Assembly: GCA_013334485.1 (NCBI GenBank)
Contig: JAAXXL010000009.1
Location: forward strand, 1-58,773
Direction of reading: 5' to 3'
Source of the DNA: Chlorobiaceae bacterium
Lineage (GTDB): Bacteria > Bacteroidota > Chlorobiia > Chlorobiales > Chlorobiaceae
Length of the DNA stretch: 58,773 nt
Positions 3,196 to 14,420 of this stretch are shown here, piece after piece. The notes beneath the pieces were generated by a model. The model had not been told where the DNA came from, searched no databases, and was given only the letters and a program-made list of their open reading frames with translations. The position numbers and the translations under genes were made by a program. Within the stretch, counting starts at the first letter, position 1. Each line of letters opens with the position of its first letter.

Positions 3196-5805
3196 TTATT
3201 TAATTATAACGCACTCCCCATTCTCAATATCTTCCTTAACCATTTTATACTTTTTAAATACAATTGATCCGTTATTATATCTTACCTTTATTTTTTCATT
3301 TCTACGATATACCTTACCTAAGCTCATAGCGATAGGCACCGCAGTAAAAGAGTCAAGGACCACCTCTGCATTTTTCCTTATTATATCAACATCTTCAAGA
3401 TGTACATAATTGGAAACATGCTTAATACTATCATATTCATTTATAAACTTAAGAATATCTCTTGCTTTATTTATAGCCGTCTCTTTTTGGTTTAAATATG
3501 CATAAAGATTTAACTCTAAATGATCAACAGTGATATATTCTTCGGGATTAACTAAAGCAAATTGTTTTACTGAATTTATAAGCTCAACGTACTTCAACGC
3601 ATCATGATACTTTCTCTGTTCAGTAAGTTGAAATATATATTTTTCAAATATTCTAAGATCAATATAATCAACGGAATCAGCCCTGTCACTCTTAAAATTA
3701 GCAAAATATTTTAACCTTACATCTAGTGATGCACCTGTATCATTAAAGTATGAAAGTAACTTATTAATGTTATATGCAATTTTTTTATCGACAGATAAAC
3801 CCTCTTTTTCGAGATAAATATTTGCATCATTAAGCAATTCTATAGCCACACTGAAATCATCTTTACTGTCAATAGCAAAAACTGCAATTTCATAGAAATG
3901 TTGTGCAAGTGGCTTTTCACCTAATATATTTATCTGCGATAATATTAACTCAAAATAATCATTATAGTAATTCTTGTACAGGTATAAAATAATACCTCTA
4001 AACACTGAATAGCTAAAATCCATTGATGCTTCTAGCTCCTCATCTGTTGGCCTAACTTTACCAGTAGATACAAGATCTAGCAATTGATTAATTAATGTTA
4101 TTTTTTCATTTGCTTCAGTAGTCACTTCAAGCAATGCGAGAATTATTTTAGGTTTAACAATATCTTTTGAAAAAGAAATTGCTTTCCTATAATTCTCTAC
4201 AACTTTACTCTGCTGATGTATGTTATCAAATGTTTGCGCTAAGTTAAAGTGAGCTATGGTCTTCAGCTCTTCTATAAATTCCTGCTTAATTTTTTCTTTT
4301 TCAAAAGCAGTTTCATCAATTATTTTTTCAAATATTTGTATAGCTTCATCTTTATGAGTTTCAACATCAGACTGCAAAGCAATACTCCCATAATCGAGAA
4401 GTGCTTTTGCGTAAATCTCATCTTTCTTACAATTACTTATCACTTTCTTAAAACATTGTAAACTTTTCTCTATACTGTTGAGATAAAAATATGTTAGTCC
4501 TCTTTGAACTAAAACAGTATAGTACCAAATAGCCTCATCGTCAACATTAAATTTAGCATTATTAAAATAACCAAGTGCGCCCTCATAATCCTTTAAGACA
4601 AACGCACAATGCCCCATTATGTAGTAATAATGATGTTTATCAACGTTATCAACAAACTCGTCCGCACTTAAATACTTTTTAAATGCTTCAAGAGCTTTTG
4701 CATATTTAAATTTTTGATACTCTTCAATAGCGATTTTTATTAATCCTTTATCTTCCTCCTCAATTGCTCTTATCCACTCGTAGCTCAAACTGCGCCGAAT
4801 AATTTCATTTTTAATACAAATATCATCTTCATGGTAGTTAATGATACCAGCAAGATATAGCTTACTTTTAATTTTATCTGAAACTTCTTTTCCTTTTTTA
4901 AACTCGATTTCAACAATAGCATTTCGAATATCTCTATCCTTTTTAACTATCTCTCTTATATTGTCTATAGGGGGCTTATCATATGTTGTAAGATATAGTT
5001 CAGTTACAAGTTTATCTATCATATCAACGTTAACATCTTCTTGCATTAACTTATTTTCTACCTCTGAACACACATCCCACATCATTCTCGGATTGCCATT
5101 TGTCCAATAAAATATTCGACTAACAGACTCATCTGATAATTTGATTCCAGAAATCATCAAAAATCTTTCGTACTCTTCCCTAGTAAAATCATTTAAATAT
5201 ATTTTTTGACCTATATTGAACGGTGATATCTTTGGATCTTTAATGATTTCATTTGGTTCAACTACTCCTGAAAGCAAATATGTTAAGCCATAAAATTCAT
5301 TATAATTTACTCTCGAAGCAAAATAACTGCTTCGTATTTGAGAAAATATCTGGTCTGAATAGTCTGTTTTTGTAAGCGCATCTATTTCATCGAGGATGAT
5401 AATAATTTTCCCTCCATTTAAAGCTTTCAGCAAAAGCCTTAACTCATTTGTATGCTGCTTATGTGCCGGGGTATCCTTTAAGTGAATTCGCCTATCATAT
5501 ATAACATTCGAAACCTCACAAAACTTTTCAGGATAAGTTTCTATTGCAACATCGATTATACTTTCGAAGCAGCTCCTTGCATCAGGAAATGAATTAGATA
5601 AATCTATATATAAAAAAACATCACTTATCGTCTCATATTTTCTTTTTGCATTTAGTAATAGATTAGTTTTACCCATTTGTCTTGAAACAAGAACATAACC
5701 AGGCCGGCCCATATCACGAATGATATTTCTTACTTGTTTATCTGCATCCCTTTGGACATAGAGTTCTGGAGGAATGATAGTATATGGCTTTAATATTTTA
5801 TTCAT
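3196..5805 (-). CDS. AAA-type ATPase with long helical-repeat (TPR-like) tail
   Basis: An 869-residue protein with no signal peptide. Residues 1-330 look like an AAA_35-type ATPase: a Walker A region SRQMGKT (41-47) in which the usual first Gly is Val, a clear Walker B IIIILDEID (134-142), then LNDFTREEYERFL and FYWTNGNPRMMWDV, which match the lid of that family. From about 350 to 640 the chain is made of paired helices with TPR-like pieces such as HYYYIMGHCAFVLKDYEGALGYF, followed by more helical repeats and a short beta-rich end. The gene starts four bases after the stop of the phosphorylase-NTPase gene, so the two form one operon. The sequence is very AT-rich and flanked by toxin and methylation genes. 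By analogy with STAND-type immune ATPases, the repeat tail could be the sensor and the fused enzyme of its neighbour the effector. That role is inferred. Confidence 0.8.
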   Translation of the reverse strand: MNKILKPYTIIPPELYVQRDADKQVRNIIRDMGRPGYVLVSRQMGKTNLLLNAKRKYETISDVFLYIDLSNSFPDARSCFESIIDVAIETYPEKFCEVSNVIYDRRIHLKDTPAHKQHTNELRLLLKALNGGKIIIILDEIDALTKTDYSDQIFSQIRSSYFASRVNYNEFYGLTYLLSGVVEPNEIIKDPKISPFNIGQKIYLNDFTREEYERFLMISGIKLSDESVSRIFYWTNGNPRMMWDVCSEVENKLMQEDVNVDMIDKLVTELYLTTYDKPPIDNIREIVKKDRDIRNAIVEIEFKKGKEVSDKIKSKLYLAGIINYHEDDICIKNEIIRRSLSYEWIRAIEEEDKGLIKIAIEEYQKFKYAKALEAFKKYLSADEFVDNVDKHHYYYIMGHCAFVLKDYEGALGYFNNAKFNVDDEAIWYYTVLVQRGLTYFYLNSIEKSLQCFKKVISNCKKDEIYAKALLDYGSIALQSDVETHKDEAIQIFEKIIDETAFEKEKIKQEFIEELKTIAHFNLAQTFDNIHQQSKVVENYRKAISFSKDIVKPKIILALLEVTTEANEKITLINQLLDLVSTGKVRPTDEELEASMDFSYSVFRGIILYLYKNYYNDYFELILSQINILGEKPLAQHFYEIAVFAIDSKDDFSVAIELLNDANIYLEKEGLSVDKKIAYNINKLLSYFNDTGASLDVRLKYFANFKSDRADSVDYIDLRIFEKYIFQLTEQRKYHDALKYVELINSVKQFALVNPEEYITVDHLELNLYAYLNQKETAINKARDILKFINEYDSIKHVSNYVHLEDVDIIRKNAEVVLDSFTAVPIAMSLGKVYRRNEKIKVRYNNGSIVFKKYKMVKEDIENGECVIIK

Positions 5806-5809
5806 TTCT

Positions 5810-7441
5810 TTAGTTTAATTCTCGCTCAATATCTCTTAATATATTAACATAAGTTTTATCATCAAACTTATTTAAGGTATAAATACTTCGAAAAAACTTC
5901 TTAATGAAGCGAGGCGACCCTTTACTTCGTTCAATTAAGGAAGACTTAAAATCAGACGTTAGACAGACATTAAAAACTCCTATAATCTTATCAACGAGCA
6001 GTATGATCTCATCTTTTCCCCAATATGTCAGAGGAATAAACATGAGATGTTGATATATTTTTTGTTGAATTTCAGATATACTTAACGAAGGATTATCTAT
6101 TGATGAAAGCACAAACTTTACTTTATCTAAACCAATAATAAAATTTTTGGAAATAATTAAAGAGAATATTTTTTCACAAAACTCTTTCTTTTCCTCACTT
6201 GAATTAATTGGGATTTCCTCAATAAATATTAACAGCTCTTTATTACTATAGTATTTATTAAGTATTGCCATCAAGCACTTACTACACTCCGAAAATGATT
6301 TTGGCTGAATTTCAGTAGACACCCCTTCAGCATAAAATGCGATTTCATATAATATCTCCTTAAAAAATTCCTCTATATTTGAACCTATGCATGGGGCGAG
6401 ATTTATTTGTATAAATGGGATTTTATTTTTTATTAAATTTCTAACAATCAAATTTGACTTCCCACACCCTGAAGGACCATATATCCAAACTCCATACTGC
6501 CGTACGTATTGATTAAATATATAATCACTATTTCTCTCAATATAGTAATTTTCTTTTAAAGCATCATAATACTCAAAAAGAACATCGCCAATATACAAGC
6601 TATAGCAACAAGATTCGTCTATAATGTTATTAATAGCCTTAACACCTAATTCTTGAAATGCAAATGGCGAATTAAATATCTCAGAGCATGCACTTAATGC
6701 AGACTCAATTGCAACTTTTTGATTAATTTTTTTATTTTCTTTTTTATTCCCATCAGCAAAATCACAAATTCCTTTAACTAATATCCAGTCAACCTTATTT
6801 CCGCATGCAGAATAAAGCCCTGCACCCTCCATTTCTCCACCTTTTGAATCTGGGAACTCGAGCTTCAATTTATTTCTATACTCTAAATTATCAACAAGTT
6901 CTTCACCAGATAATATTCGTGTGAAAATCATTTTTGCTTTTGTATCGTCACCATTAAAAAACTCCCAATTTCCGATAATATTTTTAAACCTGTTAAGTAA
7001 TATTTGACTTGATTGGGCTTCAATCCCTCTACTTATAGTTTTTGATTCTCCGACTCGTTTCACATTGTACGGAATAACTGATTCAGCAACCAAAACATCA
7101 CCAATTTTCTGTATTTCTTCTTCAACTCCAAACGCAATACCAATCATAATCACAACAGTTGTTTTTAGAAAGGTTAATGCTGACGATACCGTCATTATAG
7201 AACTATCCCTTGAAATAGATCCCATAGAACATTGAACATGAGCAACTTTATAATTACCAAAAACCCCAAAATAATAGGTATGATTACCCTCAAATACTCG
7301 TAATATTTCTTTATGTCCAACTAATGGCTCAATTTTTAAATGCGTATATTTAGTCTCAATATCTGTAGCCGTCACCAATAGCACTAAATCTCCATCAAGC
7401 AAGTGTGCAATACTGTTTGAATCAACGTCTTTATAGATCAT
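5810..7441 (-). CDS. Nucleoside phosphorylase/nucleosidase domain fused to a P-loop NTPase
   Basis: Residues 1-260 of this 543-residue protein match the phosphorylase superfamily that includes MTA/SAH nucleosidase: VVIMIGIAFGVEEE with IGDVLVAESVIPY (98-125), GGEMEGAG (201-208) carrying the expected catalytic-site Glu205, and GICDFAD (224-230) carrying the expected Asp227. Residues 280-543 are a P-loop NTPase with Walker A GPSGCGKS (322-329) and a Walker B-like LLIFIEEI (403-410), resembling STAND/AAA ATPases, with no repeat sensor after it. It is the first gene of a tightly packed operon with the AAA-TPR protein. Phosphorylase-like domains act as effectors in several immune ATPases, so a nucleotide- or nucleoside-depleting defence function is plausible, but the substrate cannot be read from sequence. 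Composition is strongly AT-rich, pointing to transfer. Confidence 0.82.
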   Translation of the reverse strand: MIYKDVDSNSIAHLLDGDLVLLVTATDIETKYTHLKIEPLVGHKEILRVFEGNHTYYFGVFGNYKVAHVQCSMGSISRDSSIMTVSSALTFLKTTVVIMIGIAFGVEEEIQKIGDVLVAESVIPYNVKRVGESKTISRGIEAQSSQILLNRFKNIIGNWEFFNGDDTKAKMIFTRILSGEELVDNLEYRNKLKLEFPDSKGGEMEGAGLYSACGNKVDWILVKGICDFADGNKKENKKINQKVAIESALSACSEIFNSPFAFQELGVKAINNIIDESCCYSLYIGDVLFEYYDALKENYYIERNSDYIFNQYVRQYGVWIYGPSGCGKSNLIVRNLIKNKIPFIQINLAPCIGSNIEEFFKEILYEIAFYAEGVSTEIQPKSFSECSKCLMAILNKYYSNKELLIFIEEIPINSSEEKKEFCEKIFSLIISKNFIIGLDKVKFVLSSIDNPSLSISEIQQKIYQHLMFIPLTYWGKDEIILLVDKIIGVFNVCLTSDFKSSLIERSKGSPRFIKKFFRSIYTLNKFDDKTYVNILRDIERELN

Positions 7442-8091
7442 TTTTATAAAATAAACAATGAAAATAATTAATTAGATTTGTTTGTAGGTCATAGTTATAC
7501 TCTATTACCTTTCAAATTTCAGATATGGCGTATTTCATTTAAACAGCTCAACAGTATTGCTAACTAAATTTCAACTAGTGAGCAAATCATAACACCTTAA
7601 ATAGAATTCATTTTATCATGGCGGATACAACTATATCTAATTACTTTTGATGATTTTTGCTATCACATATTCGCTGTAATTAGCTTCCACTATTTACATT
7701 TTACCCATTGTAAAACGGCTATAAAATACATATAATACTTGAATAATAGCAATAAAAGCCCGAGAAAAGTCTTTTCGTTTTGAAAATATTCGTTAAAAGG
7801 GTCTCTTCATAACCGCCAGCTTCATTGACAGTTACCTCAACAGCTCCCGCTGCATCAGACTTGGGATGGTTGGTTGAAAGATGAAGATGTCTGCATATGC
7901 TGAAGCGGGGTTGAGATTGAAATATAGCATTCATCGACTTTCTGCGGCTACCAAGATGCCGCTCCTCAGGAGCTGAAGAATACGACCATCCTGAAAGAAG
8001 AATCAAGCCAATTTAATGTCCGGGATTTTGATTGCGTTCAGTTGCAGACTGAGGGGTGTTGATCATCCATGGACGAAGTTGTCACTTCTGC
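7442..8091. other. Intergenic region upstream of the AT-rich operon
   Basis: About 650 bases. The first 300 or so (7442-7750) are extremely AT-rich and should hold the promoter of the phosphorylase-NTPase operon. From about 7800 the composition returns to that of the core genome, marking the likely edge of the imported block. A 95-codon open frame on the minus strand (7719-8006) is low-complexity in coding terms and spans the composition boundary; I do not regard it as a gene. No tRNA, repeat or transposase is visible. Confidence 0.45.
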
Positions 8092-9393
8092 TCAGGCAGG
8101 CTGGAGAGCTGACAGGGTTAAAAATTTCTCCTTCTGCTTGTAATCATAGCTGCTGTCAATGCCGACCAGCCGGCTTTTGATCAGATGCGCATTGACGAAG
8201 GTCTTGTTTTCGAGATAGAGATAACAGAGGAGGTTATTCTCTTTGTCGTATTTCATCCGGTCATACTTCATGAATATCCGCTTGCCCTGAATTTTCTCAA
8301 CCAGATAACCGACAGCACGGTCGTGCATAAAGGGCTCTTGCTTGATACCAATCAGTTTCACCGTCAACCCGTTGGATAAGCGCACCTTCTCGGGGCTGAG
8401 AATCTCCCTGACCGTAAACAGCTCTTCCCGCTGTGCTGAACCAGTATTATCAATGCGTGAACCAAAGGTGAGTTTTCGCGGATCCAGTTTTTTATCGAGC
8501 TTGTGAGGGTCAGTAAACCGGTAAGGCAGTTGTTCAATCGCAGAGGCAAAGTCACCCGTTACTGTGTCATGCAGAAACTCATAGGTAGTTCCTGCAAAAT
8601 CCTGCTGATTGCTGTTGAGCTTTGTTTTGGCAATCTCGATAAACTCGGGGTTGATTTCATACCCGATGGAGTTTCGGTCAAGATTTTTTGCAGCAAGAGC
8701 CGTAGTTCCGCTTCCCATAAACGGGTCAAGCACCGTATCGTCCTGGAAAGCAAACATTTTAATGAGACGATGAGGAAGCTCTTCAGGAAACATGGCAATG
8801 TGACCATCCTGTTTTGCTCCTGCAAAGTTCCAGTGGCCTGAAAAATAGGTGTTCCACTCCTCCGTGGTCATGGCTGATCGCTCTTTCTGCTCTTTGGTCG
8901 GCTTGGGAGCATCTCCCGGTTTTTTAAAAATCAGGATGAACTCATAGTCAAGTTTGAGAATACCGTTACGCGGATAAGGAAAGCTCCCCATAATTGATGC
9001 TCCGCCGGTAGTATTGGTCGTTGTTACCTTCTGCCAGATTACCGCACCCATGTAGTCCAGACCGATAGTCTCACAGAACTTTATAATCTCCGTCCGGATC
9101 GGAATAACCTTGTACCTGCCGTAGTAGACCGAACGGGCAAACTGGTCTCCGATGTTGATGCAGAGACGACATCCCGGATAGAGCACCCGCTCACACTCCT
9201 TCCAGACAAGATTCAGATTGTTGATGTAGCTCTCGTAACTCTCATGAAAACCGATCTGTGCGTCCGTGCCATAGTCCTTGAGCTGCCAGTATGGCGGTGA
9301 GGTGATCACAAGGTGAACCGACTTGTCGCCAACAAGATTCATCTCGCGGCTGTCGCCATCTATTATAGTGTGCTTGGTCTTCAAATTATTCAA
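8092..9393 (-). CDS. Beta-class DNA methyltransferase with staphylococcal-nuclease-like C-terminal domain
   Basis: Residues 1-262 of 433 form an amino-methyltransferase in beta order. The catalytic motif TSPPYW (31-36) comes first, and the AdoMet motif DPFMGSGTT (223-231) with GYEINPEFIEIA follows near 244-255. A Ser before PPY is common in N4-cytosine enzymes but also occurs in N6-adenine ones, so the target base is open. Residues 326-425 resemble a staphylococcal nuclease (TNase/OB-type) domain: VRLSNGLTVKLIGIK, YLVEKIQGKRIFMKYD, then LLCYLYLENKTFVNAHLI. The Arg and Asp typical of the nuclease active site (RLIGID) are Lys here (KLIGIK), so the tail may bind rather than cut nucleic acid. No restriction endonuclease gene is adjacent. 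It may be an orphan methylase or the modification part of an incomplete system. Confidence 0.85.
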   Translation of the reverse strand: MNNLKTKHTIIDGDSREMNLVGDKSVHLVITSPPYWQLKDYGTDAQIGFHESYESYINNLNLVWKECERVLYPGCRLCINIGDQFARSVYYGRYKVIPIRTEIIKFCETIGLDYMGAVIWQKVTTTNTTGGASIMGSFPYPRNGILKLDYEFILIFKKPGDAPKPTKEQKERSAMTTEEWNTYFSGHWNFAGAKQDGHIAMFPEELPHRLIKMFAFQDDTVLDPFMGSGTTALAAKNLDRNSIGYEINPEFIEIAKTKLNSNQQDFAGTTYEFLHDTVTGDFASAIEQLPYRFTDPHKLDKKLDPRKLTFGSRIDNTGSAQREELFTVREILSPEKVRLSNGLTVKLIGIKQEPFMHDRAVGYLVEKIQGKRIFMKYDRMKYDKENNLLCYLYLENKTFVNAHLIKSRLVGIDSSYDYKQKEKFLTLSALQPA

Positions 9394-9594
9394 TTACTTA
9401 ACAATATTCCATCAAACCTGTTACCGGTAATCGTGGTGCGTCGCCCAGATAACCGGCACTTTTCAAAAGTATAGCAATTTTCAGAAGAAACAGCGGATTT
9501 ATCCCCTCTTGAACTGACGAATTGATTGTAGCCTCCGGCGGGAGGGTTAACTGAAGAAAATTATGCCTTAAACCTCTCCTCATTGTGATACCGT

Positions 9595-9675: not shown

Positions 9676-10602
9676 TCAAGCTTTTAAAAATCGATCCACA
9701 AGGGCTTGGACTGCATTGAGCCCCATCGTGAAGTCCGGGGTTTCTCCTTCCACAGCGTAGGAAACGCCTTTGACAAACACATCATATTCGCCAGGATATT
9801 CCTTATCTGAATTCAGGATGCTCAACATACGCTGAAACTTCTCCGCCATTGAGAATGCTGCAAACTCAGGATTTTTTCTCAAACGGCCTTCATCTTCGAG
9901 CATCGAGGCAGCAACAAGGTCAACAAAATATTCATCAAAAAGGGCCAGCTTTTTGAGCAATGCCAGATCATGAATATGCCGAACAAGAGCTCGATCATCA
10001 TTTTCACTACCGCGAATTCTGGTTGGAATTCGCCACGCAAGCGCACTCAATTTATCGGAGGCACTTTCAACAGGATCGATAGACAGAACACTTTCCGCTT
10101 CCGGAGGGCTTTTGGTGAGGGTATTCACGAAGGAAGAAACGGGAAGCACAATCCCTTTGCGCTGTGGGGCTTTGACTGATATTTCTATCTGGACATGAGG
10201 TCGAATTGCAACCGGGGTAGTAAAATAACTTGGGTAGTCGAACTCGATCACGATAAACCGGTTATCATTCAGGGCCGTAATATGATGATTTTTCAGGGAA
10301 AAATCGTTAAGGCGCAAATGCTGAATCACTTCGTGCTTAAACCGGGATAAATAGCTGCGGTTTTGCTGATCTTTCGGTGCAATAACCCTGAAATCTACAT
10401 CTTCAGAAAATCGCTGGATGAGGTTATGAGCTTTTGATAATGCCGTTCCTCCCGTAAAGACAAATTCAAACCCTTCATATTTAAACTCAAACAGAGAGGA
10501 AATTACTTGCGTGACAAACCAATCCTTCTCGACAAATGCCGCATCAATTGCTTTGATTTCTGCGACACCTTCAAAAATCTCCTGTTCAGGCCGCTCGTTC
10601 AT
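9676..10602 (-). CDS. AbiEii/AbiGii-type nucleotidyltransferase toxin
   Basis: The protein carries the AbiEii signature: AFVEKDWFVTQVI near the start, then FEFVFTGGTALSKAHNLI and RFSEDVDF, which together form the GG-(T/S)xLSK...RFSEDVDF nucleotidyltransferase core. Members of this family inhibit growth by modifying RNA or proteins with nucleotides, as shown for the MenT and AbiE systems. Length of about 308 residues is normal. ATG 10602 is chosen because AAGGGAG lies 12 bases upstream and it leaves only a 17-base overlap with the preceding gene; a GTG at 10644 would add 14 residues. It is downstream of and co-transcribed with the AbiEi-type gene, the usual abortive-infection type IV toxin-antitoxin order. 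Confidence 0.87.
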   Translation of the reverse strand: MNERPEQEIFEGVAEIKAIDAAFVEKDWFVTQVISSLFEFKYEGFEFVFTGGTALSKAHNLIQRFSEDVDFRVIAPKDQQNRSYLSRFKHEVIQHLRLNDFSLKNHHITALNDNRFIVIEFDYPSYFTTPVAIRPHVQIEISVKAPQRKGIVLPVSSFVNTLTKSPPEAESVLSIDPVESASDKLSALAWRIPTRIRGSENDDRALVRHIHDLALLKKLALFDEYFVDLVAASMLEDEGRLRKNPEFAAFSMAEKFQRMLSILNSDKEYPGEYDVFVKGVSYAVEGETPDFTMGLNAVQALVDRFLKA

Positions 10603-11002
10603 AGCTAATGTAAACTCCCTTATATCCAAGCTTTCGACTGACACGGCCCTTTACACCAATCAATCGGCCTGTAGGAACCTGCGTTGTCCTGCCTGCATTA
10701 TAGTCTTGTTCAAGACGGGATGGTGCAGTTTTGATTCCTAAGCGCGCGAGCGCTTCTTTAGCCAATACAGGTAACGGCGCCACGGGAACGATTGTCCCGT
10801 TTATGGGCGACGTTTTCGCCTTTGCGTAGACACCATAACCAAGGCGGATCAGACATCCCTTTTTCGTCAAATTCCGAAGCGCCCTTCCGACCTGATCGTA
10901 GTCACAGCTTATATCCTTAAAATCATCACGAACGAAAACAGCGGATTTCTTCCTCGCTATTCGTGCCGTAATCCGGTACTCAATACTCCCGTATCTACTC
11001 AT
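10586..11002 (-). CDS. DUF6088/AbiEi-type antitoxin
   Basis: The 138-residue protein has a winged-helix start: SIEYRITARIARKKSAVFVRDDF, then GRALRNLTKKGCLIRLGYGVYAKA. This is the pattern of DUF6088 and AbiEi antitoxins, which read as a transcriptional-regulator HTH ending in G-x-Y-x-K. The second half (LAKEALARLGIKTAPSRLE, TGRLIGVKGRVSRKLGYKG) resembles the DUF6088 C-terminal part. It overlaps the AbiEii-type toxin gene and would bind DNA at its own promoter and counter the toxin. The start at 11002 is the only reasonable ATG; upstream sequence is short and AT-rich, as expected for a promoter. Confidence 0.83.
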   Translation of the reverse strand: MSRYGSIEYRITARIARKKSAVFVRDDFKDISCDYDQVGRALRNLTKKGCLIRLGYGVYAKAKTSPINGTIVPVAPLPVLAKEALARLGIKTAPSRLEQDYNAGRTTQVPTGRLIGVKGRVSRKLGYKGVYISYERAA

Positions 11003-11125
11003 TAAAAATGTTCTTTAGATGAACAACAATACGACACCATACTTATGCAAAGATAAGACACTTTATGGAGAACAACAAGCCTTTCGTTTTTGGCCGGTAT
11101 TCATACGTTAAGGGGTTTGAATGCC

Positions 11126-11315
11126 CGATTGACCAACCTCCGGGACGGTGTTCACTACTGTCAGAAACGGGCGCATCTGAACGGTCAGGTAAGCAGTGCT
11201 GCGCTTTGTTTCAGGCCTTTAAAAATCGAATCGGCTACCTGTGCCGGAAATCCGGTTGGCCATGGCCATTTTTACCCTGTGTAAAGAGATAAAAATATAA
11301 CCCGGAAGGGATTTG
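11126..11315 (-). pseudogene. Collapsed hipBA relic (repeat copy B)
   Basis: From about 11136 to 11262 this matches the 3' end and flank of hipA (12795-12925). It then jumps to a piece resembling internal hipA sequence (GGCCATGGCCATTTTTACC, compare 13089-13108). Next, near 11295-11311, comes ATATAACCCGGAAGGG, which resembles the hipB operator repeat around 14491-14506. The order is the same as in the intact module, with most of hipA and all of hipB missing. I read it as a hipBA copy reduced by internal deletions to its ends. Confidence 0.6.
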
Positions 11316-11431
11316 GACACTGCATATCTTTCTTGCCATCCAGAGGGATACCGTTTGGCACTGTTTTTCGGGAATTCGGCTGAATTACGGATTCTTGATG
11401 AATGAGAAGAGGAAGTGATTCGATGAGCAGG

Positions 11432-11833
11432 TTACTGCACCCAGTTCTCGATTTGCAGGGCCGGGACACAGATAAACTCTTTTGTGTTGTTGGTGACAAG
11501 AATCAGTCCTTCGCTGCGGGCATGAGCGGCGATATGGAGATCATTAACCCCGATTGACTGACCCGATTTTGCAAGAGTTGCCCGGATAGCACCATAATGC
11601 CAGGATGCGTTCGGTCCATACGGCAGAACCGCAAGCCTGCTGCAGAAATCTTCAACAACCGAAAGATTTGCGCTCACGTTGCTGCTCTTTTCCGCACCAT
11701 AGCAGAGTTCAGACAACGTGATAGCAGAGATGGCCATTCGGTCGGCGTTTCTGTTAAACACATCCAATACCTCAATTGGTCGACGCTTCAGGGTATATAT
11801 GACGATGTTGGTATCAAGAAGATAGCGCAGCAT
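11432..11833 (-). CDS. vapC: VapC-type PIN-domain ribonuclease toxin
   Basis: A complete 133-residue PIN protein: RYLLDTNIVIYTLK (first acidic residue), ISAITLSELCYGAEKS (Glu), IGVNDLHIAAHARSEG (Asp) and LVTNNTKEF, where many relatives have a second D or N-rich site. VapC toxins cleave tRNA or rRNA when freed from VapB. The ATG overlaps the last base of the vapB stop codon (TAATG), so translation is coupled. Length and motifs are intact, unlike the broken PIN gene at 549-995. Autoregulation by the VapBC complex is usual in this family. Confidence 0.92.
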   Translation of the reverse strand: MLRYLLDTNIVIYTLKRRPIEVLDVFNRNADRMAISAITLSELCYGAEKSSNVSANLSVVEDFCSRLAVLPYGPNASWHYGAIRATLAKSGQSIGVNDLHIAAHARSEGLILVTNNTKEFICVPALQIENWVQ

Positions 11834-12066
11834 TACAAGGCTTCCCGTTCTGATTGTTCCTGATCGTCACGCTCCTCCATAAAGTCATCCGTCACCTTTT
11901 CTGTCCCGAGGAAAAAGCTCTCCCACGACTGTCCCGCCGGAGATATTATCCGTTCATTGCCTTTTACCCTGATTGTTACCTTTTTAACATTTTCCGGCAA
12001 CCGGACATCAACAGGCAGTCGCACTGCCTGGGAACGATTGTTGACAAATACAGTAGTGGTAGTCAT
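11833..12066 (-). CDS. vapB: VapB-type antitoxin (AbrB/SpoVT fold)
   Basis: Starting at ATG 12066 the protein reads TTTTVFVNNRSQAVRLP, the classic start of VapB/AbrB swapped-hairpin antitoxins, followed by VKKVTIRVKGNERIISP and an acidic, likely disordered tail (EERDDQEQSE) that would occupy the VapC active site. AGGAGG lies five bases upstream of this ATG, so 12066 is preferred over an in-frame ATG at 12084. It is the first gene of the vapBC operon and should repress it. The product is about 77 residues, a normal length. Confidence 0.9.
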   Translation of the reverse strand: MTTTTVFVNNRSQAVRLPVDVRLPENVKKVTIRVKGNERIISPAGQSWESFFLGTEKVTDDFMEERDDQEQSEREAL

Positions 12067-12262
12067 TTTTGCCTCCTGAATCAATGGATATATTACCAGT
12101 ATATAGCAAATAATTCACCGCCAGGCAATCTCTGCTTGTTACGACAGAAAAACCTCTATTTTTCGATTGCCATATCACAAATCGTTTTTTATCATGAACA
12201 ATCACAACCCCTCACTCCTGTAAGTCCCGATCCTTCAAAAGAACAACCAAACGCTGATCACC

Positions 12263-12649
12263 ATGAGAAAAGCCATCACATCCTACACCGTGCACCTGCT
12301 GGCTTCGGTTAAAACCGGACTGACTGCACAGATCCTGTTTAAAAACAACGGGTTGTTTGTGGGAAGAGTTGATTTTTATAACGGAGTGGATCTTCCTAAA
12401 TCCTACCTCTGGCATCCGAACAATCCGAACGATGAAAATCAGACCTATCTTGTTCTGGCGATGTCGTTTGATGCATTTCATTCCGTAGCGGAACTGATTC
12501 GTAACGAAACTCCCTGGGGGCTGGAGTTATGGCCGGTATCATCCCCGATGATTGGCGCTGCTACAGATGGCTATTCGGGTAAACTCTATACCACATCCGA
12601 AGAGATCACCGGCGAACAGGAGTTTGACCTCCAGGCGCTCCGTCCATAG
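12263..12649 (+). CDS. Conserved hypothetical protein (128 aa)
   Basis: A 128-residue soluble protein I cannot assign. It opens with ITSYTVHLLASVKTGLTAQI and has an NGLFVGRVDFYNG segment, suggesting a small beta-rich domain, and no signal peptide or catalytic motif that I can name. It stands alone on the plus strand between vapBC and hipBA, both on the minus strand, so it is not part of their operons. The coding potential looks real (even residue use, complete frame). Location in the toxin island suggests accessory status but gives no function. Confidence 0.6.
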   Translation: MRKAITSYTVHLLASVKTGLTAQILFKNNGLFVGRVDFYNGVDLPKSYLWHPNNPNDENQTYLVLAMSFDAFHSVAELIRNETPWGLELWPVSSPMIGAATDGYSGKLYTTSEEITGEQEFDLQALRP

Positions 12650-12794
12650 AGCAGTTTCCTCCATCTGTTCAACCTGATCAGATGGAGAAACATCATTGCT
12701 CTCAGAAACTGACACATCATAATTATCACGGTACTTGATCATTATCTTCTGCGTTCCTGAAGCTTGATCTCTTACTCAGCATCGTTTGAAAATA

Positions 12795-12925
12795 AAACTC
12801 AATTCCGGGACGGTGTTCACTACTGTCAGAAACTGGCACATCTGAACGGTCAGGAAAGCTGTGCTGCGCTCTGTTTCAGGCCTTTAAAAATCGAATCGGC
12901 AACCTGTGCAGGAAATCCTGGCGGC
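12795..12925. repeat. Repeat copy C, spanning the hipA 3' end
   Basis: This copy runs from CTCAATTCCGGGACGGTG downstream of hipA into its last 25 or so codons. It matches copy B over about 125 bases and copy A over about 70. Because it includes real hipA codons, this is the parent copy and the others are partial duplicates or remnants. Confidence 0.72.
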
Positions 12926-14175
12926 AATTCATTGCTGACCCGATCAATGACCGCAGGGGTTTTGCTGATCATATCCCCAATGATATCTGCACAGCTCGAT
13001 GCATCAAAACCGCAGCGGGTAGCTGTTGAAAGGAAATGGTGTTTCTGAAGAGTGTTCCACAGGTAGTGCTTATTCTTTCCCCTCAAGGCCATAGCCATTT
13101 TAACCTTTTGTGAAGAGAGCATTCCTGTTCCTGAACCCATAACAGGATAGGCCGACAGGACATCATAAAGCGGTGTAAGGTTGTAGGAGCCACCCCGATC
13201 AATAAAGATGCTGAAATTTTTTGCGTGTCCATCTATTGCACACAGAAGCCAGAACGCTACCTGCGCCCGAAAAAACGCTTTACGATCCTCTTCCGCCCTT
13301 GATGATCCAAGAAGAAGGTTCATGATCGGCCTGATCCCCGGCCCCCCGTCACTCTCATATTTCAGACCTGACGGCGTGCCGGTTGCCTGACACATATCCT
13401 CCTGCGGCAACCGGATAATCCATGATTTATCCGAAGAGAGCCTTCTGTCAAATCGCTCAACTACTAATGTTTTTGTATTACCGAACTCAATCATGCTGCT
13501 CGCAGCAACAGAGATGCCGTATGCCTGCAATATTCTGCTGCAGAGCCACTCATTTTCAACGGACAAGGTCATATCAATATTAAAATGACCCATCTGACCC
13601 AGCGGGAGCTTGAGAATATGCGTTGTAGGAGTTGCTCCTGTCGGTTTTTTCCATTGCCCTTCATGCCACAACAGCGCTGTTTTTTCCTGCGCTCCGGCAA
13701 TTGAAATACGAAACTCCTCTGTTTCGCTGAGCAATCTGCCCAAATAATCCGATGTTACTGCGCGAGCTATCAATAATTCGATATCGGCATCGGTAACCGT
13801 TTCGGCTGTTATTTTTCGAACATCAACCACATCATCCCCGTCAGGCAATATTTGAATTGCGCCTACACAGTCGCGTCCAATTTCCGCAAGAAGCTGAAAG
13901 GCGTCAATGGAGCCGGTAGCAAAACGATCCCGGATTCTTCTCCGAATCGCATCATTATCTGGAAGAAGATTATCAAAAAATGAATGGACGATATCGCCAC
14001 TGTACCGCTCTTCGCGTAACGGTATTGATAGGGAGAGCGGGCGGGAAAAAGGAGAAGAGAGCCATGATTCAGCATAGAGAAATTCATGTGATCCGGTTGA
14101 GGTCAGTTTCCACTCACCCACCAGTTCGCCATTCATCAGCACAAGAAGCGTCCGGGACTTGAGTTTTCTGCCCAT
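12850..14175 (-). CDS. hipA: HipA-type serine/threonine kinase toxin
   Basis: The protein of about 441 residues follows the HipA plan. An N-terminal subdomain has LVLMNGELVGEW and FFDNLLPDND. A phosphate-binding region reads ISIAGAQEKTALLW, and the kinase core has LLCAIDGHAKNFSIFI (catalytic Asp and metal-binding Asn) followed by YNLTPLYDVLSAYP. HipA in E. coli phosphorylates glutamyl-tRNA synthetase and induces dormancy; the target here is unknown. The ATG at 14175 overlaps the hipB stop by one base (TAATG); ATG 14181 is possible but gives a larger overlap. The 3' end lies inside a repeat present twice more in the window. All motifs look intact. Confidence 0.92.
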   Translation of the reverse strand: MGRKLKSRTLLVLMNGELVGEWKLTSTGSHEFLYAESWLSSPFSRPLSLSIPLREERYSGDIVHSFFDNLLPDNDAIRRRIRDRFATGSIDAFQLLAEIGRDCVGAIQILPDGDDVVDVRKITAETVTDADIELLIARAVTSDYLGRLLSETEEFRISIAGAQEKTALLWHEGQWKKPTGATPTTHILKLPLGQMGHFNIDMTLSVENEWLCSRILQAYGISVAASSMIEFGNTKTLVVERFDRRLSSDKSWIIRLPQEDMCQATGTPSGLKYESDGGPGIRPIMNLLLGSSRAEEDRKAFFRAQVAFWLLCAIDGHAKNFSIFIDRGGSYNLTPLYDVLSAYPVMGSGTGMLSSQKVKMAMALRGKNKHYLWNTLQKHHFLSTATRCGFDASSCADIIGDMISKTPAVIDRVSNELPPGFPAQVADSIFKGLKQSAAQLS

Positions 14176-14420
14176 TACCATTCACCATCGCTGCTGCATG
14201 AACTCTTTGGCCTCAAGACAAGCTCAAGACCAAGTGCAGAGAGCAGTTTAAAAAGACTCTCTATACTGCTTGTTCCAGGAGTGTTTTCCAGTGCCGATAT
14301 GCTCTTTGGATAGAGACCAACCTTCAGGGATGCCTGCTTTTGAGTCATTTTCAGCTTCTTTCTAAAGCCGCCAAGTACCATTGCAAGCTGCATCGGGGTC
14401 CGGATTGACTGACTCTCCAT
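14175..14420 (-). CDS. hipB: HipB-type XRE-family antitoxin
   Basis: An 81-residue helix-turn-helix protein: LAMVLGGFRKKLKMTQKQAS and LYPKSISALENTPGTSSIE form the Cro/CI-type HTH, followed by LFKLLSALGLELVLRPK, the strand that HipB uses to dimerise. It binds HipA and represses the operon. Three imperfect inverted repeats stand 44-116 bases upstream, matching its expected operators. It directly precedes hipA with one base of overlap. Confidence 0.9.
   Translation of the reverse strand: MESQSIRTPMQLAMVLGGFRKKLKMTQKQASLKVGLYPKSISALENTPGTSSIESLFKLLSALGLELVLRPKSSCSSDGEW

Follow-up and report, generated by a model that had tools for sequence, protein, structure and literature searches.

The gene on the minus strand at positions 8092..9393 of the window, by which we mean the whole 58,773-nucleotide stretch of Chlorobiaceae DNA analysed here, encodes what is probably a solitary DNA methyltransferase derived from an MjaI-type Type II restriction–modification (R–M) system, with a non-catalytic staphylococcal nuclease (SNase) fold as a DNA-holding module and with its endonuclease gene deleted. 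In the mechanism that we propose, the N-terminal domain would both read the site and transfer a methyl group to an exocyclic amino position, probably cytosine N4 and probably within CTAG. The C-terminal SNase fold would have been recruited to hold DNA. Next to the active site, its basic OB barrel and a conserved linker would together grip either duplex DNA or the non-target strand, much as CcrM, another beta-class enzyme, does with a C-terminal domain of unrelated fold. With the separate RE_MjaI endonuclease deleted, the enzyme would now methylate without restriction.

The gene and its methyltransferase domain

The open reading frame encodes 433 aa, and its true start is likely the TTG at 9384 (residue 4), giving a protein of 430 aa, since this codon is conserved and homologue alignments begin there. 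Residues 1–262 (8608..9393, minus strand) form a beta-class N4/N6 amino-methyltransferase domain, which is matched by the Pfam N6_N4_Mtase family over residues 26–256 (E 5.9e-45) and for which TTHA0409 (2zie) is the nearest solved structure. The catalytic motif IV SPPY (residues 32–35; 9289..9300, minus strand), invariant in 40 homologues and here part of TSPPY (residues 31–35), precedes the AdoMet-binding, FxGxG-type motif I DPFMGSGTT (residues 223–231; 8701..8727, minus strand), which is nearly invariant in 40 homologues. This motif order is that of the beta class of Type II amino-methyltransferases and, with the domain match, bears out the original prediction of a complete beta-class methylase at residues 1–262.

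A SNase fold without the SNase active site

The methyltransferase domain is followed by a linker (residues 263–323; 8425..8607, minus strand) with a conserved DPHKLDKK..P.KL.FGS motif and then by a SNase-like OB-fold domain lacking catalytic residues (residues 324–425; 8119..8424, minus strand). The Pfam SNase family (PF00565) matches residues 331–417 of the full protein slightly below its cut-off (E 0.0014) and the tail alone slightly above it (21.1 bits against a cut-off of 21). A single match of this kind is weak by itself, and the SNase assignment is carried by the homologous tails, all 40 of which match the family (best E 1.4e-9); families other than SNase each match at most four of the 40. 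In the AlphaFold2 model, built on an alignment of 40 relatives, the tail shows the SNase-type order b-b-b-a-b-b-a-a over residues 325–429, with pLDDT block means of 81–94 across residues 331–430. Residues 299–323 of the linker are unstructured in the model, a property often seen in segments that become ordered on DNA. Foldseek searches with the full model rank methyltransferases first and then staphylococcal nuclease (E 2.6e-7, TM 0.76 of the target), while the top 50 matches to the tail model are all staphylococcal nuclease (E 1.5e-7, rmsd ~2.3, TM ~0.7). A SNase-like OB domain had been proposed at residues 326–425, and profile search and structure prediction now place it at about 324–425; the objection that the tail might hold no OB fold falls away because AlphaFold2 and Foldseek give the SNase fold. 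At the level of sequence and predicted structure, we regard the fold as confirmed.

The active set of SNase comprises the catalytic Arg35, Glu43 and Arg87 and the Ca-binding Asp21 and Asp40. By HMMER alignment, K346 falls at the Arg35 position, K351 at Asp40, P354 at Glu43 and N387 at Arg87; we assigned E335 to Asp21 from the order of the strands. In a set of 87 homologues, the Arg35 position is K or R, the Asp40 position is K in 81, the Glu43 position is P, K or E, the Arg87 position is N in 68 and the Asp21 position is E in 79. The earlier remark that lysine stands where the catalytic Asp/Arg region should be is therefore accurate for K351 and K346, with asparagine at N387. The full catalytic set is present in none of the 87 homologues examined, and the tails of divergent tailed methyltransferases likewise do not have it. 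The tail thus has its fold and strand order in common with staphylococcal nuclease, but its catalytic and calcium-site residues are replaced throughout the family, and judging from these positions it is catalytically dead family-wide. All of 40 sequences compared share D378, K381, D383, Y391, N396, T398, F399, N401 and H403, and by this pattern the tail is conserved for reasons other than nuclease catalysis. A SNase fold that lost its catalytic residues and was recruited for binding is also found in the eTudor domain of Tudor-SN (PMC7641849), although that protein is eukaryotic and, unlike the tail described here, binds methylarginine through an inserted Tudor domain.

A widespread family with an RE_MjaI partner

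The PADLOC Type II methyltransferase model PDLC03259 spans residues 6–426 (E 8e-174), and head and tail therefore belong to one catalogued family. Proteins of this model have the same head, linker and tail as the window protein; the model itself says nothing on the tail, and the window copy differs in having lost its restriction partner. Relatives at 57–96% identity occur in Chlorobi, Bacteroidota, Nitrospirota, desulfobacterial and Neomarinimicrobia genomes, and in the 394 genomes of the phylum that we searched, the strong tail matches lie in methyltransferase-length frames or in pieces of these genes. Among phage and plasmid records, none spans 80% of the tailed query, the best matches being limited to the head; one viral contig (L144) carries a tailed methyltransferase with RE_MjaI. 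The window protein itself is one ordinary member of this widespread catalogued family. A literature search for a SNase-like domain on a DNA methyltransferase found no description in the literature that could be searched, so that a SNase domain both conserved and catalytically dead, carried by a family of R–M methylases, is apparently undescribed.

In at least 66 of 101 methyltransferase loci (counted as loci rather than genomes, some of them duplicating one genome), an RE_MjaI gene lies directly downstream, frequently with a 7 bp overlap. This downstream frame of ~211 aa matches RE_MjaI (PF09568) with E 4.9e-47, and RE_MjaI also adjoins more divergent tailed methyltransferases (L146, L148, L150 and L144). 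Because the family usually has this overlapping downstream gene, the window gene is, by its relatives, the methylating component of an MjaI-type Type II R–M system. M.MthZI, M.MjaI and M.BfaI are likewise beta-class methyltransferases and, as in the relatives of the window gene, have an adjacent MjaI-family endonuclease. M.MthZI, which we take to be the methyltransferase of plasmid pFZ1, has 355 aa and aligns to residues 4–260 only of the window protein at 35% identity, with nothing aligned to the SNase tail.

These observations bear on the suggestion in the original prediction that the tail descends from the nuclease of a former single-chain R–M enzyme and has since decayed. Its fold is indeed a nuclease fold, but the SNase catalytic set is absent from all homologues examined, divergent tails and relatives with a complete R–M system included, and the system's nuclease is encoded by the separate RE_MjaI gene, in contrast to the single chain of Type IIC/IIG enzymes. 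For these reasons the suggestion is unsupported and we consider it extremely unlikely.

Deletion of the endonuclease gene

Comparison with a congeneric genome (G015) indicates how the window gene came to be without a partner. The two sequences match at 96.7% from 9542 to 8109, including the stretch upstream of the gene (9394..9542, minus strand), and a weaker match resumes from 7984 to 7754. Between them lies a deletion scar (7985..8108), where the RE_MjaI gene is intact in G015 (213 aa) and the window has ~125 unrelated bases. In a further locus (L023), whose methyltransferase is 96% identical, the endonuclease frame is interrupted by one stop codon. We found no RE_MjaI gene in the whole assembly, which is 96% complete, and no remnant of it in the window by tblastn or profile search. 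The window thus holds an intact methyltransferase with no cognate endonuclease found in its assembly, and on this comparison the enzyme is solitary (orphan) through deletion of its partner. It had been noted that no restriction gene is adjacent, which is correct only because the RE_MjaI gene was deleted. With the endonuclease intact in G015, stopped in L023 and deleted in the window, the series presents a clear in-place conversion of an R–M methylase to a solitary one.

Elsewhere in the family, several solitary copies (L034, L036, L094 and L054) retain just the first 27–38 codons of RE_MjaI, and these recognisable remnants, from different genomes, stop at nearly one position.

Genomic surroundings

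The window gene lies in a defence and toxin–antitoxin neighbourhood. Just upstream (9676–14181, minus strand) are an AbiEi/AbiEii pair, a PIN-domain protein and a HipA-like protein. At 3196–7441 (minus strand), two genes 4 bp apart encode a protein with nucleoside-phosphorylase-like and ATPase domains (543 aa) and an AAA_35-TPR protein (869 aa); the 543-aa protein has partial PADLOC matches to the candidate defence protein PDC-M60C and to a PN-superfamily effector.

In several genomes of the genus to which the window belongs, the methyltransferase gene recurs every 1–4 kb as truncated copies or copies with internal deletions (L103 (G023:C13), L104 (G018:C87), L029/L105 (G050:C43), L107, L108 and L110); none was seen in the window. 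Many of these pieces start exactly at the methyltransferase start and have a common upstream stretch, their internal deletion points recur (nt 199 to 467, 419 to 902 and 518 to 605), and they alternate with toxin–antitoxin-like genes (ParE, Gp49, UPF0175, Macro and a DUF4143 ATPase). One possible role for the pieces is as sites of recombination through which cassettes are exchanged.

Likely target sequence

M.MthZI, M.MjaI and M.BfaI are reported to be CTAG N4-cytosine methyltransferases (PMC5867850), and an MjaI-family endonuclease adjoins M.MthZI. At L153, a MthZI-like methyltransferase (50% identical) and two MthZI-like endonucleases lie beside a member of the window family with a swapped tail. 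Given the RE_MjaI linkage and these associations with M.MthZI and L153, CTAG is likely to be the target by analogy, the analogy running through RE_MjaI and through M.MthZI, whose methyltransferase is just 35% identical to the window protein. Depletion of CTAG was also considered as evidence of specificity and dropped. The window holds 5 CTAG sites against 47 expected (observed/expected 0.11), but congeners without the methyltransferase show ratios of 0.00–0.35 and such depletion is present in many genomes (PMC6471742), so it adds nothing.

The L153 contig (L153:2-3869) is an observation in its own right, with tandem methyltransferases, one MthZI-like and the other of the window family but with a domain lacking any Pfam match in place of the SNase tail, adjoining two RE_MjaI-type genes.

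Possible role of the tail

The tail is basic, with a mean net charge of +7.4 across 87 sequences; in the window protein, residues 288–433 carry +9 compared with –2 for the methyltransferase domain. Pairwise dN/dS of the OB part is low, at 0.05–0.17 overall and 0.07–0.17 for pairs in which both members are without an intact endonuclease gene, pairwise values that may include time preceding endonuclease loss. Low values between such pairs speak against a tail that serves solely to couple with the endonuclease. A docking or dimerization domain, coupling the methyltransferase to RE_MjaI or to itself, would suit the constant presence of RE_MjaI as a neighbour, but RE_MjaI also pairs with tail-less methyltransferases such as M.MthZI; the tail is therefore not essential to MjaI-type systems, and we judge this role unlikely. 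Sequence divergence is quicker in the tail (mean column identity 0.73) than in the head (0.83–0.88), which could point to a structural appendage of minor role, retained for stability. With many invariant polar residues (D378, K381, D383, N396, T398 and N401) and the low dN/dS, such a minor role is very unlikely.

Beta-class enzymes read DNA through the central part of the methyltransferase domain, and in the present family the most invariant stretch of the whole protein lies there, at residues 67–190 (70 of 124 positions invariant). Moreover, the L153 member has a head 59% identical to that of the window protein and, after the linker, an unrelated domain in place of the SNase tail. Both observations speak against the tail setting specificity, as does the tail-less M.MthZI, which is reported to methylate CTAG (PMC5867850). 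Conservation of the tail along with the methyltransferase across phyla could be explained by a true target-recognition domain that fixes sequence specificity; on balance, we hold this to be decidedly unlikely. The description of the tail in the original prediction as a DNA-recognition or single-strand-binding add-on was nevertheless the better of the two readings it offered, and by charge, conservation and analogy with CcrM it holds as a predicted DNA-binding add-on, while its specificity-setting part is disfavoured.

CcrM provides the closest precedent for the DNA-holding module that we favour. It is likewise a beta-class enzyme in which a linker leads to a C-terminal domain, and this domain, which is required for activity, binds DNA non-specifically and keeps hold of the non-target strand (PMC6787082). 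DNA binding is established for CcrM and predicted here by position, charge and conservation. The two differ in that the CcrM domain is SAND/PWWP-like rather than SNase-like, and CcrM methylates N6-adenine in GANTC. From the low dN/dS, the basic tail, the conserved linker and the CcrM precedent, we take DNA gripping to be the most likely function. More tentatively, the dead SNase fold could be a swappable module that holds the melted or non-target strand for strand separation, through a CcrM-like mechanism in which other domains can be substituted, as at L153. A tail that binds DNA would give the C-terminal DNA-binding domains known from beta-class methyltransferases a second fold, unrelated to the first. 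The family also shows a nuclease fold stably retired to a non-catalytic role in several phyla.
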